Shown here piece by piece: positions 55,804-60,816 of a stretch of 64,000 nt of DNA. This stretch comes from Kiritimatiellia bacterium (GTDB lineage: Bacteria; Verrucomicrobiota; Kiritimatiellia; RFP12; UBA1067), in NCBI GenBank assembly GCA_017454745.1, contig JAFTCL010000044.1, positions 62,001-126,000 on the forward strand, read 5' to 3'. Each line of letters begins with the position of its first letter. Within the stretch, counting starts at the first letter, position 1. Under the pieces are notes generated by a model that saw only the letters and a program-made list of their open reading frames with translations, made no database searches and was not told where the DNA came from. Both the position numbers and the translations under genes were made by a program.

Positions 55804-57906
55804 TCAGGGCGCAAACTCCGCCAGCGCCAAGGCCAGAAACGCCGAACCGACCTCCGCGTCGGGCGCGATGGCGGACGGCACAAGGCCGTACCGGGCCAAA
55901 GCCGCCGACGTTGGTTTTCCCAACACGGTTACCGCTTTCCCGACCAATCTTTCCGCGCCGAACTGCGACACAAAAGAATCAACCGCCGAGGCGCTGGCAA
56001 AAAAGACCGCGTCAAACTCCGGCAACCGGTCATAGGCTACGAATTTATTGCGGTAAAGCACCGCGTCATCCACCGCCGCCCCCCGTTGGCGTAACGTATC
56101 CGCCACCACACTTCCCGCCTTTTCGGAACGCAGCCGCAACACCTTTTGTCCGGAAAAATCCACTTCAGCCGACGCGGCCAGCATTCCTTCGGCGCAGAAA
56201 TTGGATGCCGGGGCCAGATCCGGCTCGATGCCGTAACGCCGAAACGCCGCCGCGCTACCCGGTCCGCAAGTCATCACTTTTGGAAGCTTACGCAGGTCAA
56301 CCCCCGTTAGCCGAACCAGCGCCATCATGCAATCCACCGCCGACGGCGAGGTGAGCACCAGCCAATCGTATTCCCCCGCCCTTCTCAACGCCGCCTCCGC
56401 TTCGGCGCACGGAACAAGCCGGATCATCGGGCGAACCAGCGGGATTGCGCCCAAATCCCGCGCCGCCAGTTCCGCCTTGTCGCGCAACGCCTCGCTGGCG
56501 GTGATTAAAATGCGGCGACCGCGCAACGCGCCCAAATCCCGCCGGTAACAGTGTCCGGCCGCCGTACCCACCACTAGCAATCCGGGCGGATCGCCTTCTA
56601 AAACCGGCAAGGTTCCGGACACCAGTCCAGCCAAGGTGGTTGCCACCACCCGTTCATCGTCCGCCCCGGCGTTGAACACGCATGACGCCGGGGTGTCAGA
56701 AGGCCAGCCTTCGTTAATGAGTTGCGCCGCCACCTGATCAGCCACCCGGACCGACATGAACACCGCCAACGGCAGACGGGAACGCTGTTCCAACGCCACC
56801 CCAGCTATGCCTCCGCGCTCTGCACGGGGCGTGAGTGCGGTGAAACCGCGCGATTCGCCGCGGCGGGTCAACAGCATCCCGGTTCCGGTGGTGGCGACGG
56901 TCAATGCGCTGACCCCGGGACGAACGGTGTAAGGCAGGCCCAGTTTCTCCAGAACCTCGATCTCCTCCGCCAGACGTCCGAACAGCCCCGGATCGCCGCC
57001 CTTCAATCGCACCACCCGACGGCCTTGGCGCGCATAATTAGCGATTAACTCCGTGATTTCCGGCTGCGGAACCGTATGTCCGCCGCATCTTTTGCCAACA
57101 AACACCCACTCGCAATCCGGTGGCAGAAACTCCAGCAACGCCGCGTCCATCAAAACATCGTAAAGGCACACCTCGGCCGAACGCAAATCGTTGATTCCGC
57201 CCCAAGTGCAGGTGTCGAACGAACCTACGCCCGCGCCGACAAATCGAACCGCTTTGACCATAAATGCGCGGATCCTGGTCAGCAACGGATCGCCCGACCT
57301 AAAGGTTACCGCCAACACCCCCTGCCCCGGCGGCACCGTCAATTCGCTCAACGGTACCCATTCTGATGCGCGTTCGGGAAGCCCCAACCGGTTAAGCGCC
57401 GCGCCGGCCATCAGCAGCGCGTCGAAATCGCCCCGGTCAAGCTGTTCCAGCCGTGACGGTATCGATCCCCGGACGGGACGGCAAACCGCGTTTGGAAAAC
57501 GGCCGCGGCAATACGCCTCGCGCCGGTCGCTGCTCACCCCCACCACCGGGGCTTCGGGCAAATCTTCCATGGTCTTGCCCGGCGGCAACACCCACGCGTC
57601 CCTGGGATCTTCGCGCCACGGCAACCAAAACCAGTCAATCCCATACGGCACCGGATTCGGCAAATCCTTGGCACTGTGAACCGCAAAGTCGATTTGCCCG
57701 GAAATCAGCGCATCATCCAACTCTCTGGTGAAGAAATCCTCCGGCGAAAACCGCAAATCGGTTTTTAGATCCCGGTCGCCGATGGTGGAAAATTTGCGCA
57801 ACTCAAACTCCAACGCCGGGAACCAGCATTTAAAATGTTCCAAGACGGCGTGGGTCTGAATAAGGGACAGGCGGCTGCCGCGCGCTCCGACAATCAACTT
57901 TTTCAT
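55804..57906 (-). CDS. HemC (no cofactor domain) - SUMT - HemD fusion
   Basis: 700-residue fusion for tetrapyrrole synthesis. ATG 57906 follows GGTGAG. Residues 1-220 are porphobilinogen deaminase domains 1-2: GARGSRLSLIQTH, STIGDRDL, FTRELDDALISGQIDFAVHS with AKDLP (catalytic Asp), REDPRDAW, VGVSSDRREA, RGSIPSRLEQLDRGDFDAL and PPGQGVLAV. Domain 3, which carries the Cys holding the dipyrromethane cofactor, is absent: uroporphyrinogen-III methyltransferase sequence begins directly (VRFVGAGVGS, about 222; RLKGGDPGLFGR; LTRRGESRG). Its first SAM loop reads GAGVGS instead of GAGPGD. From about 464 comes HemD (uroporphyrinogen-III synthase; VLTSPSAVDCMMALV, TCGPGSAAAFRRYG, FFASASAVDSFV). Product could be siroheme or heme precursors. 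Confidence 0.88.
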   Translation of the reverse strand: MKKLIVGARGSRLSLIQTHAVLEHFKCWFPALEFELRKFSTIGDRDLKTDLRFSPEDFFTRELDDALISGQIDFAVHSAKDLPNPVPYGIDWFWLPWREDPRDAWVLPPGKTMEDLPEAPVVGVSSDRREAYCRGRFPNAVCRPVRGSIPSRLEQLDRGDFDALLMAGAALNRLGLPERASEWVPLSELTVPPGQGVLAVTFRSGDPLLTRIRAFMVKAVRFVGAGVGSFDTCTWGGINDLRSAEVCLYDVLMDAALLEFLPPDCEWVFVGKRCGGHTVPQPEITELIANYARQGRRVVRLKGGDPGLFGRLAEEIEVLEKLGLPYTVRPGVSALTVATTGTGMLLTRRGESRGFTALTPRAERGGIAGVALEQRSRLPLAVFMSVRVADQVAAQLINEGWPSDTPASCVFNAGADDERVVATTLAGLVSGTLPVLEGDPPGLLVVGTAAGHCYRRDLGALRGRRILITASEALRDKAELAARDLGAIPLVRPMIRLVPCAEAEAALRRAGEYDWLVLTSPSAVDCMMALVRLTGVDLRKLPKVMTCGPGSAAAFRRYGIEPDLAPASNFCAEGMLAASAEVDFSGQKVLRLRSEKAGSVVADTLRQRGAAVDDAVLYRNKFVAYDRLPEFDAVFFASASAVDSFVSQFGAERLVGKAVTVLGKPTSAALARYGLVPSAIAPDAEVGSAFLALALAEFAP

Positions 57907-57978
57907 CACATCTCACCAATAACCAAGCCAAAAACGAAAGACGAGTAACAATATAACTCTTTTAGCTAAAATTGTCTA

Positions 57979-58167: not shown

Positions 58168-60816
58168 ATGAAAAGACTATTCGCAATCCTAGCGGCGGCG
58201 ATTGGTTTCGCCGTAATCGCAAACGCGGAAAATTACATCAATTTGTCGACTTTGACAGGCGACAAGACACTCGTCGATGGCGATGCCATCTGGGACACGC
58301 TCTCCGGCAACCACAAAATCTCTATCGCTCCCGGCGCTACGATTATACTCAATAGCGCAACCATCAACGGCGTGAACAACGAAAACTGCAAGTGGGCCGG
58401 CATCACATGCCTGGGCGATGCGACAATCGTACTTGTTGGAGACAACACCGTCAGGGGATTCTACGAGGATTATCCCGGTGTATACGTACCTGAAGGCTCG
58501 ACACTCACTATTCGTGGGGGCGGTTCGTTAAACGCCTCCAGCAACGGCTGGGGTGCCGGCATCGGCGGCGGTTACGATATGCCATGCGGAGACATCAAAA
58601 TCCTTTGGGGTGACATAACTGCCACGGGCGGAAGCCACGCGGCGGGCATTGGCGGTAGCTGCGATCAAACTTGCGGCAACATCCTCATTTACGGGAAAAA
58701 CGTCACCGCCACGGGCGGTACCAACGCCCCGGGCATCGGCTCCGGCGGTAGCACTAGCTGGTCTCAAGCCTCCTGTAACAATATCATCATTTACGGCGGC
58801 ATCGTCACCGCCACTGGCGGAACTAACGCCCCCGGTATCGGTTGCGGCAAAGGAAGCAAATGCAATGATATCCAAATCACTTCCCAGTACTACGCACCTT
58901 GCGTTACCGCGACATGCGGCAAAAACTGCGATAAACCAATTGGCGCGGGTGTTGACGGGACTTGCGACTTAATCTTCGTGAGCACGAATCTTGACAGTGT
59001 AACAAACGGCCAGACGCGCAAAATCAAACATATTGCTAATCTCGCCAATATCACGAAAGATACGCAATTCATCCATGGAGAGACCATCTCAGGCACTCTC
59101 GGCGGCAACTACAAAATCTCCATCACCGATGGTTCTACAGTGACGCTCAAAAATGTGACCATTCGGGGCGCGAACAGCTCCAGCTACGCCTTTGCAGGAA
59201 TAACATGCGAAGGCGATGCCACGATCATCCTTGAGGGCGCGAACACCATCAAAGGATTTTACGATAGATACCCTGGTATTTTCGTCCCATCAGGCAAGAC
59301 GTTGACAATCAAGGGCACTGGTTCGCTTAATGCCTCCAGCAACGGATATGGATCCGGCATCGGCGGCGGTTACGGCATAAATTGCGGAAATATCGTTATT
59401 GATGGCGGCACCATTACGGCCCAAGGCGGCAGCAGTTCGGCAGGAATTGGCAGCGGTGACGGCGGAAGCGGTTCTGCCACTGCCATATGCGGCTACATCA
59501 CAATAAACGGCGGCACTATCACCGCGACCGGTGGCGTCAACGGAGCAGGCATTGGCTGCGGCAGGTGCGGCGAGTGCGGCAACATCACCATCGGTTCGGG
59601 AATCACCAGCGTAATCGCGACGCGCAACTCCACATATAGCACAAATCTGGCCCCTATCGGCAAGGGCTCTGGAGCCAGCACTACAGGTACCATAACCATC
59701 GCGGACGACCTGAATGACGTGACAAGCGATGACGGTGATACACGTACCATAAAGGCCTGGTCCTTAAGGAGGCTTGAACTGCTCGTGGGTGACCCGACAT
59801 ACAATAACTTAGAAATAATCACCGGTACTCTCACGGGCAATTTCAAGATTTATATCGCAGACGGCGCGACGGTGAAGCTAAGGAATGCGACAATCGTCGG
59901 CGAAAATAACTCCAACTATGATTGGGCAGGCATCACCTGCCTCGGCAACGCGACAATCATACTGGAGGGCGATAATACTGTAAAAGGATTCGACGAAAGC
60001 TATCCCGGCATTTCCGTTCCGGCGGGCAAGACGCTGACTATCAAGGGCACTGGGTCATTAACTGCATCCAGCAACGGCTGGGGTGCCGGCATAGGCGGTG
60101 GGTACAATATGGCCTGCGGCAATATTGTCATAGAAGGCGGAACAATCAACGCAATAGGCGGTGGTGGCGCGGCCGGCATCGGCAGCGGCTATGTCAACAA
60201 ATGCGGCAACATCACTATCTCCGGCGGTACCGTCACGGCGACGGGCGGTCTACAGGCTACGGGCATTGGCAGCGGTAGCGGTAGCGGGGCCAAATGCGGT
60301 ACCATCACCATCGGCGCAGGCATCACGCGCATCACGGCAACATGTGGTGAGAGTTGTTCCAATCCCATCGGCGCGGGTTATAGTGGCTCTTGCGGCGTCA
60401 TAACATTGGCGAGTGGCTTGAGCGACTCGACAACCGGATCGACGAGGGTGATCGCAAGTAACAGCGGCATCGCTTCGTGGGCGGCTGCGAAGGGACTCAA
60501 GGGCGCGGATGCGGAATGGGACGCTAAACCGGCGATGTGGGGCGGCAAATGGGCGAATGCTTTCATCTATACCTACGGTGAAGGGCTAGCTAACGGTACG
60601 ACCGCCTTAATGACCATCAAGTTCGACGCTAATGGTAAACCGATCATCACGACTGCACCGGTCATCGAAGGCCGCACTGATTTCAGCGCTTCCATAATCG
60701 GCGTACCCAAGCTCGACAACTGGGCTAATCCGGTCATCCTCAACCGTAGTGGAAATGACTGGACCCTCCCGGCGGGCAAGGCGGCAAACTTCTTCCGCGT
60801 TAAGCTGTCTAAATAG
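58168..60816 (+). CDS. Secreted beta-helix protein with three 245-265-residue repeats
   Basis: 882 residues with a signal peptide (KRLFAILAAAIGFAVIANAE). Three long repeats start near residues 31, 297 and 541. Each runs in the same order: a GTLxGNxKI segment, WAGITCxGDATIxLxGxNTV, a YPGIxVPxGKTLTIKGTGSL line, SNGWGAGIGGGY and several CGNIxIxGGTITATGG turns. This is a right-handed beta-helix pattern found in surface proteins of gut anaerobes. Cys residues recur at every CGN turn. The C-terminal 110 residues (KGLKGADAEWDAKPAMWGG ... WTLPAGKAANFFRVKL) form a separate module that may be an export or anchoring tail. Ligand unknown. AAGGGA precedes the start. Confidence 0.85.
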   Translation: MKRLFAILAAAIGFAVIANAENYINLSTLTGDKTLVDGDAIWDTLSGNHKISIAPGATIILNSATINGVNNENCKWAGITCLGDATIVLVGDNTVRGFYEDYPGVYVPEGSTLTIRGGGSLNASSNGWGAGIGGGYDMPCGDIKILWGDITATGGSHAAGIGGSCDQTCGNILIYGKNVTATGGTNAPGIGSGGSTSWSQASCNNIIIYGGIVTATGGTNAPGIGCGKGSKCNDIQITSQYYAPCVTATCGKNCDKPIGAGVDGTCDLIFVSTNLDSVTNGQTRKIKHIANLANITKDTQFIHGETISGTLGGNYKISITDGSTVTLKNVTIRGANSSSYAFAGITCEGDATIILEGANTIKGFYDRYPGIFVPSGKTLTIKGTGSLNASSNGYGSGIGGGYGINCGNIVIDGGTITAQGGSSSAGIGSGDGGSGSATAICGYITINGGTITATGGVNGAGIGCGRCGECGNITIGSGITSVIATRNSTYSTNLAPIGKGSGASTTGTITIADDLNDVTSDDGDTRTIKAWSLRRLELLVGDPTYNNLEIITGTLTGNFKIYIADGATVKLRNATIVGENNSNYDWAGITCLGNATIILEGDNTVKGFDESYPGISVPAGKTLTIKGTGSLTASSNGWGAGIGGGYNMACGNIVIEGGTINAIGGGGAAGIGSGYVNKCGNITISGGTVTATGGLQATGIGSGSGSGAKCGTITIGAGITRITATCGESCSNPIGAGYSGSCGVITLASGLSDSTTGSTRVIASNSGIASWAAAKGLKGADAEWDAKPAMWGGKWANAFIYTYGEGLANGTTALMTIKFDANGKPIITTAPVIEGRTDFSASIIGVPKLDNWANPVILNRSGNDWTLPAGKAANFFRVKLSK

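Follow-up and report, generated by a model that had tools for sequence, protein, structure and literature searches.

The stretch of DNA analyzed here (hereafter the window; 64,000 nucleotides) carries on its reverse strand, at 55804..57909, one reading frame of 701 codons from the GTG at 57909, or 700 amino acids from the ATG at 57906, which encodes a HemC-SUMT-HemD fusion that has only domains 1 and 2 (D1-D2) of HemC. All features of the fusion lie on this strand. The HemC domains occupy residues of about 3–214 (57268..57903), as delimited by Pfam PF01379, a helix at residues 208–214 of the structural model, and the E. coli domain limits. Porphobil_deam (PF01379) matches residues 5–208 over positions 1–203 of the 207 in the profile (177.9 bits), and the catalytic Asp, D82 (E. 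coli D84; 57664..57666), lies in the motif HSAKD and is invariant in the alignment rows. The uroporphyrinogen-III C-methyltransferase (SUMT) domain follows at residues 223–428 (56626..57243; TP_methylase, PF00590, E 4.5e-32, above the Pfam cut-off). It contains the motif RLKGGDP and has GAGVGS in place of GAGPGD in its first SAM loop (residues 225–230, 57220..57237), a loop type shared with relatives; its score on TIGR01469 is 171.7 bits, below the cut-off of 185. Both the retained Asp and the departure from GAGPGD had been part of the original prediction and can be read directly in the sequence. The uroporphyrinogen-III synthase (HemD) domain lies at residues 482–689 (55843..56466; HEM4, PF02602, E 1.4e-37, 129.5 bits against a cut-off of 27.5). 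Judged from sequence, the fused enzyme is a siroheme/B12-pathway protein. On the forward strand of the window, an 882-amino acid protein with repeated GAGIGGGY-like segments (58168-60816) looks like a repetitive secreted protein.

The end of D2 (PPGQGVLAVTFRSGDPLLTRIRAFMVK) is followed immediately by the SUMT strand VRFVGAGVGS. Domain 3 with the cofactor Cys would be expected to start in this junction (residues 209–222, 57244..57285; placed by Pfam, the alignment, and the model). In E. coli, the hinge spans residues 218–221, domain 3 comprises residues 222–313, and the cofactor is carried on Cys242 (PMC3945110, PMC8561815). The HemC match of the window protein ends at the position of this hinge, with SUMT from there on. 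Porphobil_deamC has no Pfam match anywhere in the fusion protein, and the hemC profile TIGR00212 (176.5 bits, cut-off 164) is matched only over positions 1–210 of 293. The fusion is thus of the predicted type, without the cofactor domain. In the AlphaFold2 model of the fusion (mean pLDDT 89.5, pTM 0.88), the helix at 208–214 leads to the SUMT strand at 221–225, and therefore a domain of 90 residues would not fit; Foldseek matched this model to HMBS and siroheme synthase structures. The identical junction was found in 29 of the 30 aligned loci, including that of the window, and is therefore not due to chance. The one exception (L002 of genome G033) has domain 3.

The lack of domain 3 recurs in other genomes. 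Among 59 genomes of relatives up to the order level, PF01379 is found in 39 and PF03900 (domain 3) in one (G033). The 38 of 39 HemC-bearing relatives without PF03900 have a single HemC per genome. G033 belongs to the window's family, and its HemC-SUMT-HemD fusion with domain 3, located near hemB, seems to be of the canonical type and to have replaced the short form. In the window's class, our own count of rows gave 86 genomes with PF01379, of which four have PF03900 (G033, G113, G225, and G370); across 387 genomes of the phylum, the corresponding numbers are 244 and 124. PF03900 is a weak model, and its absence alone was distrusted outside the window's class because real domain 3s of some other Verrucomicrobiota score near its threshold; our own domain-3 profile detects these at about 1e-10. 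Among the best 80 loci of a genome scan that had further matches, domain 3 is missing in loci of Kiritimatiellae, Lentisphaerae, Omnitrophota, records of Pontiella and Victivallis, and one record each of WS1, Prevotellaceae, and Tannerella. In Bacteroidales, 24 of 119 genomes have HemC, always as a single copy, which lacks domain 3 in four and has it in 20. In Omnitrophota, PF01379 is found in 81 of 145 genomes. Two Omnitrophota genomes each have a domain-3-less and a canonical hemC (L196/L205 in G496 and L204/L206 in G525), for which contamination of the metagenome-assembled genomes (MAGs) and genuine co-existence are both possible.

Other architectures were also observed. A second type of HemC(D1-D2)-SUMT-HemD fusion, with ALVGCPA or a similar sequence as the SUMT Gly loop, is present in four loci (L109, L110, L124, and L130) of Verrucomicrobia/Kiritimatiellae and other MAGs. 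In two loci of Pontiella/Kiritimatiellales (L084 and L089; 452–454 amino acids), HemC D1-D2 runs straight into a HemD-like sequence with no SUMT.

For phylogenetic analysis, 227 HemCs were extracted, and a profile made from the E. coli sequence and its matches was used to look for domain 3 in each. Domain 3 was scored as present at E 5e-10 or better, and all other sequences had E above 0.1 or no match. The tree was inferred from domains 1–2 alone for 206 of these loci; those left out were two with frameshifts (L119 and L121), two with D1-D2 in two pieces (L094 and L101), a copy of L002 (L031), and same-locus copies. L119 and L121, initially labelled domain-3-less, were rejected as such, being frameshifted canonical genes whose domain 3 lies shortly downstream in a different frame. 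A single branch parts the 105 domain-3-less from the 101 domain-3-bearing rows (SH-aLRT 98). In a careful subset of 85 rows, cut just past the QGxL motif, the splitting branch has support of 100/99, and a single change is needed in all 200 bootstrap trees. The rows are a non-random sample, some of them having been chosen because they resemble the group of the window. However, the Bacteroidales set was found by Pfam alone and is therefore free of this recruitment bias, and all 24 of its loci are included in the 206-row tree. The best reading of these sequence patterns is that domain-3-less HemCs form a separate, ancient family of porphobilinogen (PBG) deaminases in several bacterial phyla. Because the position of the root is not fixed, one loss of domain 3 is the simple reading and one gain is also possible; the two-domain form might resemble the original enzyme.

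The domain-3-less HemCs share domains 1–2, the catalytic Asp, and the arginine cleft with canonical HemC (TIGR00212; PDB 1pda, 1ah5, 4mlv, and 7aaj), with 31–39% identity to the canonical structures over D1-D2. In E. coli numbering, R11, S13, Q19, H80, S81, K83, D84, S128, R132, R149, R155, R176, and Q198 are identical in 105/105 domain-3-less rows, and the catalytic Asp is likewise present in all 101 domain-3-bearing rows. The window protein itself has both this Asp and the arginines of the cleft. Unlike canonical HemC, the new family lacks domain 3 and the cofactor Cys, has its own DFFT loop, and is relaxed at R101, R131, N151, T154, K158, and P194, of which R101, R131, and N151 are invariant in the 101 canonical rows. 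R131 is kept in 81 of the 105 domain-3-less rows, and the 24 losses are all outside the Kiritimatiellae/Lentisphaerae fusions. The lid loop of the active site has family-specific acids, with Asp at the position of I48 in 99/105 rows and at that of G60 in 103/105. The pyrroles bound to human HMBS contact Ser147 and Arg149 at the C1 site and Arg150, Ala189, Ser96, Arg195, and Gly218 at the C2 site (PMC7907807). By the offset in our alignment, these correspond to E. coli S129 and R131 (C1) and to R132, A170, S81, R176, and G199 (C2). Based on this mapping, the C2 site is fully kept, whereas R131 of the C1 site, beside the tether, is lost in 24/105 rows.

Stand-alone members of the family provide information on how a cofactor may be held. 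The 22 short HemCs retrieved from Omnitrophota (L176-L196 and L208, where L176, L179, and L208 are the genes also recorded as L128, L140, and L129, respectively) are 206–246 amino acids long and end 3–31 residues past D2. A stop codon is present in 21 of them, and the remaining one (L182) reaches the contig edge. Three complete proteins (L181, L191, and L208) contain no Cys, nor is any encoded in the stretch from the upstream stop codon to the start of these genes. These three therefore cannot have dipyrromethane bound through a thioether, as it is in the enzymes of E. coli, B. megaterium, and humans. The AlphaFold2 model of one of them (L129, i.e., L208) reaches a pLDDT of 95 and is similar to HMBS structures (TM 0.84–0.93), and D1-D2 is thus predicted to fold alone. 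That the deaminase may hold its cofactor without a thioether had been one of three possibilities raised in the original prediction, and these complete cysteine-free homologues support it.

The strongest alternative is that dipyrromethane is still bound covalently, but through some other residue of D1-D2 or SUMT: a Cys at a new position or a different nucleophile, for instance one of the lid-loop acids. Cys is found at SUMT-loop position C234 (window numbering) in 26 of the 41 aligned fusions and at C248 in 27, which is the maximum for any column of these fusions. However, at any D1-D2 column, Cys occurs in at most 31 of the 105 domain-3-less rows, and five of these rows have no Cys in D1-D2 at all. 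A relocated, conserved cofactor Cys was accordingly rejected for both D1-D2 and the fusions, and the window fusion has no invariant Cys to carry dipyrromethane, as the region that would bear it is absent and no Cys column elsewhere is conserved. The family-specific acids fit the other version of this explanation, but a carboxylate ester is chemically fragile. Taken together with the cysteine-free stand-alone proteins, these patterns make another covalent attachment unlikely, although a nucleophile other than Cys is conceivable.

A second alternative is that a separate protein, either diverged or unrelated, takes over the role of domain 3 in trans. The window genome (3.86 Mb in 83 contigs) is 92.2% complete and most genomes surveyed are drafts, such that a gene may have been missed, and PF03900 fails to recover some diverged domain 3s. 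A search of the window genome for a second hemC or a stand-alone domain 3, as the original prediction had proposed, found PF01379 only in the fusion and no match to PF03900, whereas both profiles match in 11 of 14 control genomes. Like the 58 of 59 relatives mentioned above, 42 of another 44 genomes that have a domain-3-less HemC lack PF03900, and the other two both have a second, canonical HemC. In another set, it was found in 0/16 genomes. Moreover, at 122 loci labelled domain-3-less, no other open reading frame of at least 100 amino acids encodes domain 3, except at the frameshifted L119 and L121. One genome (G508; two contigs) has only a marginal domain-3 match (E 0.027) in its readable part. 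These results argue against the suggestion that the missing part lies elsewhere in the genome, and make provision in trans quite improbable.

Even less probable is the third alternative, in which the HemC half has decayed or serves a different purpose, such as regulation or PBG binding, with the tetrapyrrole made otherwise. The missing domain does bear the Cys that is essential in the canonical enzyme. However, D1-D2 is under purifying selection, with dN/dS of 0.040/0.335 (about 0.12) between the window and L061; the corresponding values are 0.042/0.528 for SUMT and 0.110/0.584 for HemD. HemB, present in 42 of the 59 relatives, is found in all 39 with HemC and in three of the 20 without (Fisher 4e-12). 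Among 80 further genomes, HemB is present in 44/44 with a domain-3-less HemC and in 0/36 without HemC, although that of G525 is a fragment. In the window genome, hemB (L207) and the fusion are on separate contigs, and the sequence neighboring either gene offers no clue to the pathway.

Operons in other genomes link these HemCs to tetrapyrrole synthesis. In Omnitrophota, they contain genes for Rrf2, PAPS reductase, CysG-N, HemA, HemC, SUMT or SUMT-HemD, HemB, HemL, and nitrite/sulphite reductase, with the content assigned by Pfam for L181 and L208 and by similarity for the remaining loci. In loci of Kiritimatiellae and Lentisphaerae, a CysG-N/HemA protein is often encoded upstream of HemC, with HemB and often HemL downstream (e.g., L067, L072, and L086). 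The upstream reading frame of ~500–550 amino acids in L062, L067, L072, L078, L086, and others matches both CysG-N and HemA and is likely a CysG-N (precorrin-2 dehydrogenase)/HemA fusion. Ten Omnitrophota operons (L181, L186-L191, and L193-L195) extend from HemA through nitrite/sulphite reductase with a SUMT of ~240–300 codons and no HemD. In G508, our own profile detected no HEM4 in what could be read of the two contigs, with N at 233357 of the 1864002 bases of the pieces.

Short and canonical forms also substitute for each other, with one HemC per genome in both the Bacteroidales, where four of 24 are short, and the 39 HemC-bearing relatives. As the trait is shared by 38 of these 39, with D1-D2 under purifying selection and HemB in all 39, decay is not the explanation. 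The idea of a degenerate HemC half, also raised in the original prediction, is thus contradicted by the selection estimates, the status of the fusion as the only HemC of its genome, the catalytic residues invariant in 105/105 rows, the HemB linkage, and the operons. Finally, although the frameshifted L119 and L121 do mimic a lack of domain 3, an assembly or gene-calling artefact is refuted by the recurrence of the junction in dozens of independent genomes of several phyla, and the next pathway gene lies directly after stand-alone HemCs.

With a missing part elsewhere and a degenerate HemC half both countered, the reading left is a deaminase that would hold its primer without a thioether. In the canonical enzyme, four PBG are added to the Cys-bound dipyrromethane before the product is cut off, and the apoenzyme builds its cofactor slowly from PBG but fast from preuroporphyrinogen (PMC3949521). 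Cys261 is the sole point of attachment for the chain in the human enzyme (PMC7907807) and is intolerant of mutation (PMC10577081), and an untethered enzyme would thus need another way of priming. The domain-3-less HemCs are probably a functional family of two-domain PBG deaminases with an untethered primer. Domains 1 and 2 would provide the cleft known from the canonical enzyme, with its catalytic Asp and arginines, and would assemble PBG into the linear tetrapyrrole without any covalently bound dipyrromethane. Either free dipyrromethane or PBG may serve as the primer, and the kept C2 site and relaxed C1 site lean slightly toward the shorter primer. The primer and growing chain would be held by salt bridges only, as the cleft alone would hold the chain. 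The linear product would then be handed to the fused uroporphyrinogen-III synthase and SUMT to yield precorrin-2. The frequent fusion to HemD fits a direct hand-over of an untethered product, although the stand-alone forms indicate that fusion is not required. We infer activity, non-covalent priming, and the identities of the primer and product from sequence comparisons. The broader proposal, that the whole multi-phylum family, cysteine-free stand-alone proteins included, primes from a free pyrrole without any covalent cofactor, seems to us rather more plausible than not.

Among known systems, the hydroxymethylbilane synthase model NF002202/PRK01066 (NCBIfam; 241 positions) is matched by the window protein over positions 20–216. 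The score of 142.7 bits is below the cut-off of 251, and the window protein is therefore not a member. This model, which we presume to have been built on Chlamydiae, ends about 25 positions past D2 and is thus probably domain-3-less too; it is likely a database precedent for short HemCs. HemC-SUMT-HemD fusions with domain 3, for example in Lachnospiraceae (L111, L115, L122, and L123) and in G033, have the same order in one frame. Unlike the window fusion, the domain-3-bearing fusions group with canonical HemCs in the trees that include them. Searches of the open-licence PMC literature yielded no account of a HemC lacking domain 3; the single match to a "truncated HemC" concerns a Plasmodium protein with its signal sequence, not domain 3, removed. 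Within the reach of these searches, neither the family and its unity nor its cysteine-free members and operons seem to have been described.

Haem, chlorophyll, siroheme, F430, and B12 all depend on the PBG deaminase step. To our knowledge, the cofactor domain and its Cys are present in every well-studied PBG deaminase, and the tether is regarded as universal. When PF01379 is the only criterion, annotation lumps together two enzymes, perhaps of different mechanism. How the chain is elongated is debated, and the favored model has the Cys pull the chain past the catalytic Asp (PMC8561815). A natural two-domain enzyme free of Cys offers a direct test of the need for a tether, of the primer, and of how the enzyme counts to four. 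A family that lacks both this domain and its Cys suggests that no covalent anchor is needed to make the universal tetrapyrrole chain and, if this is true, the dipyrromethane tether would be dispensable.
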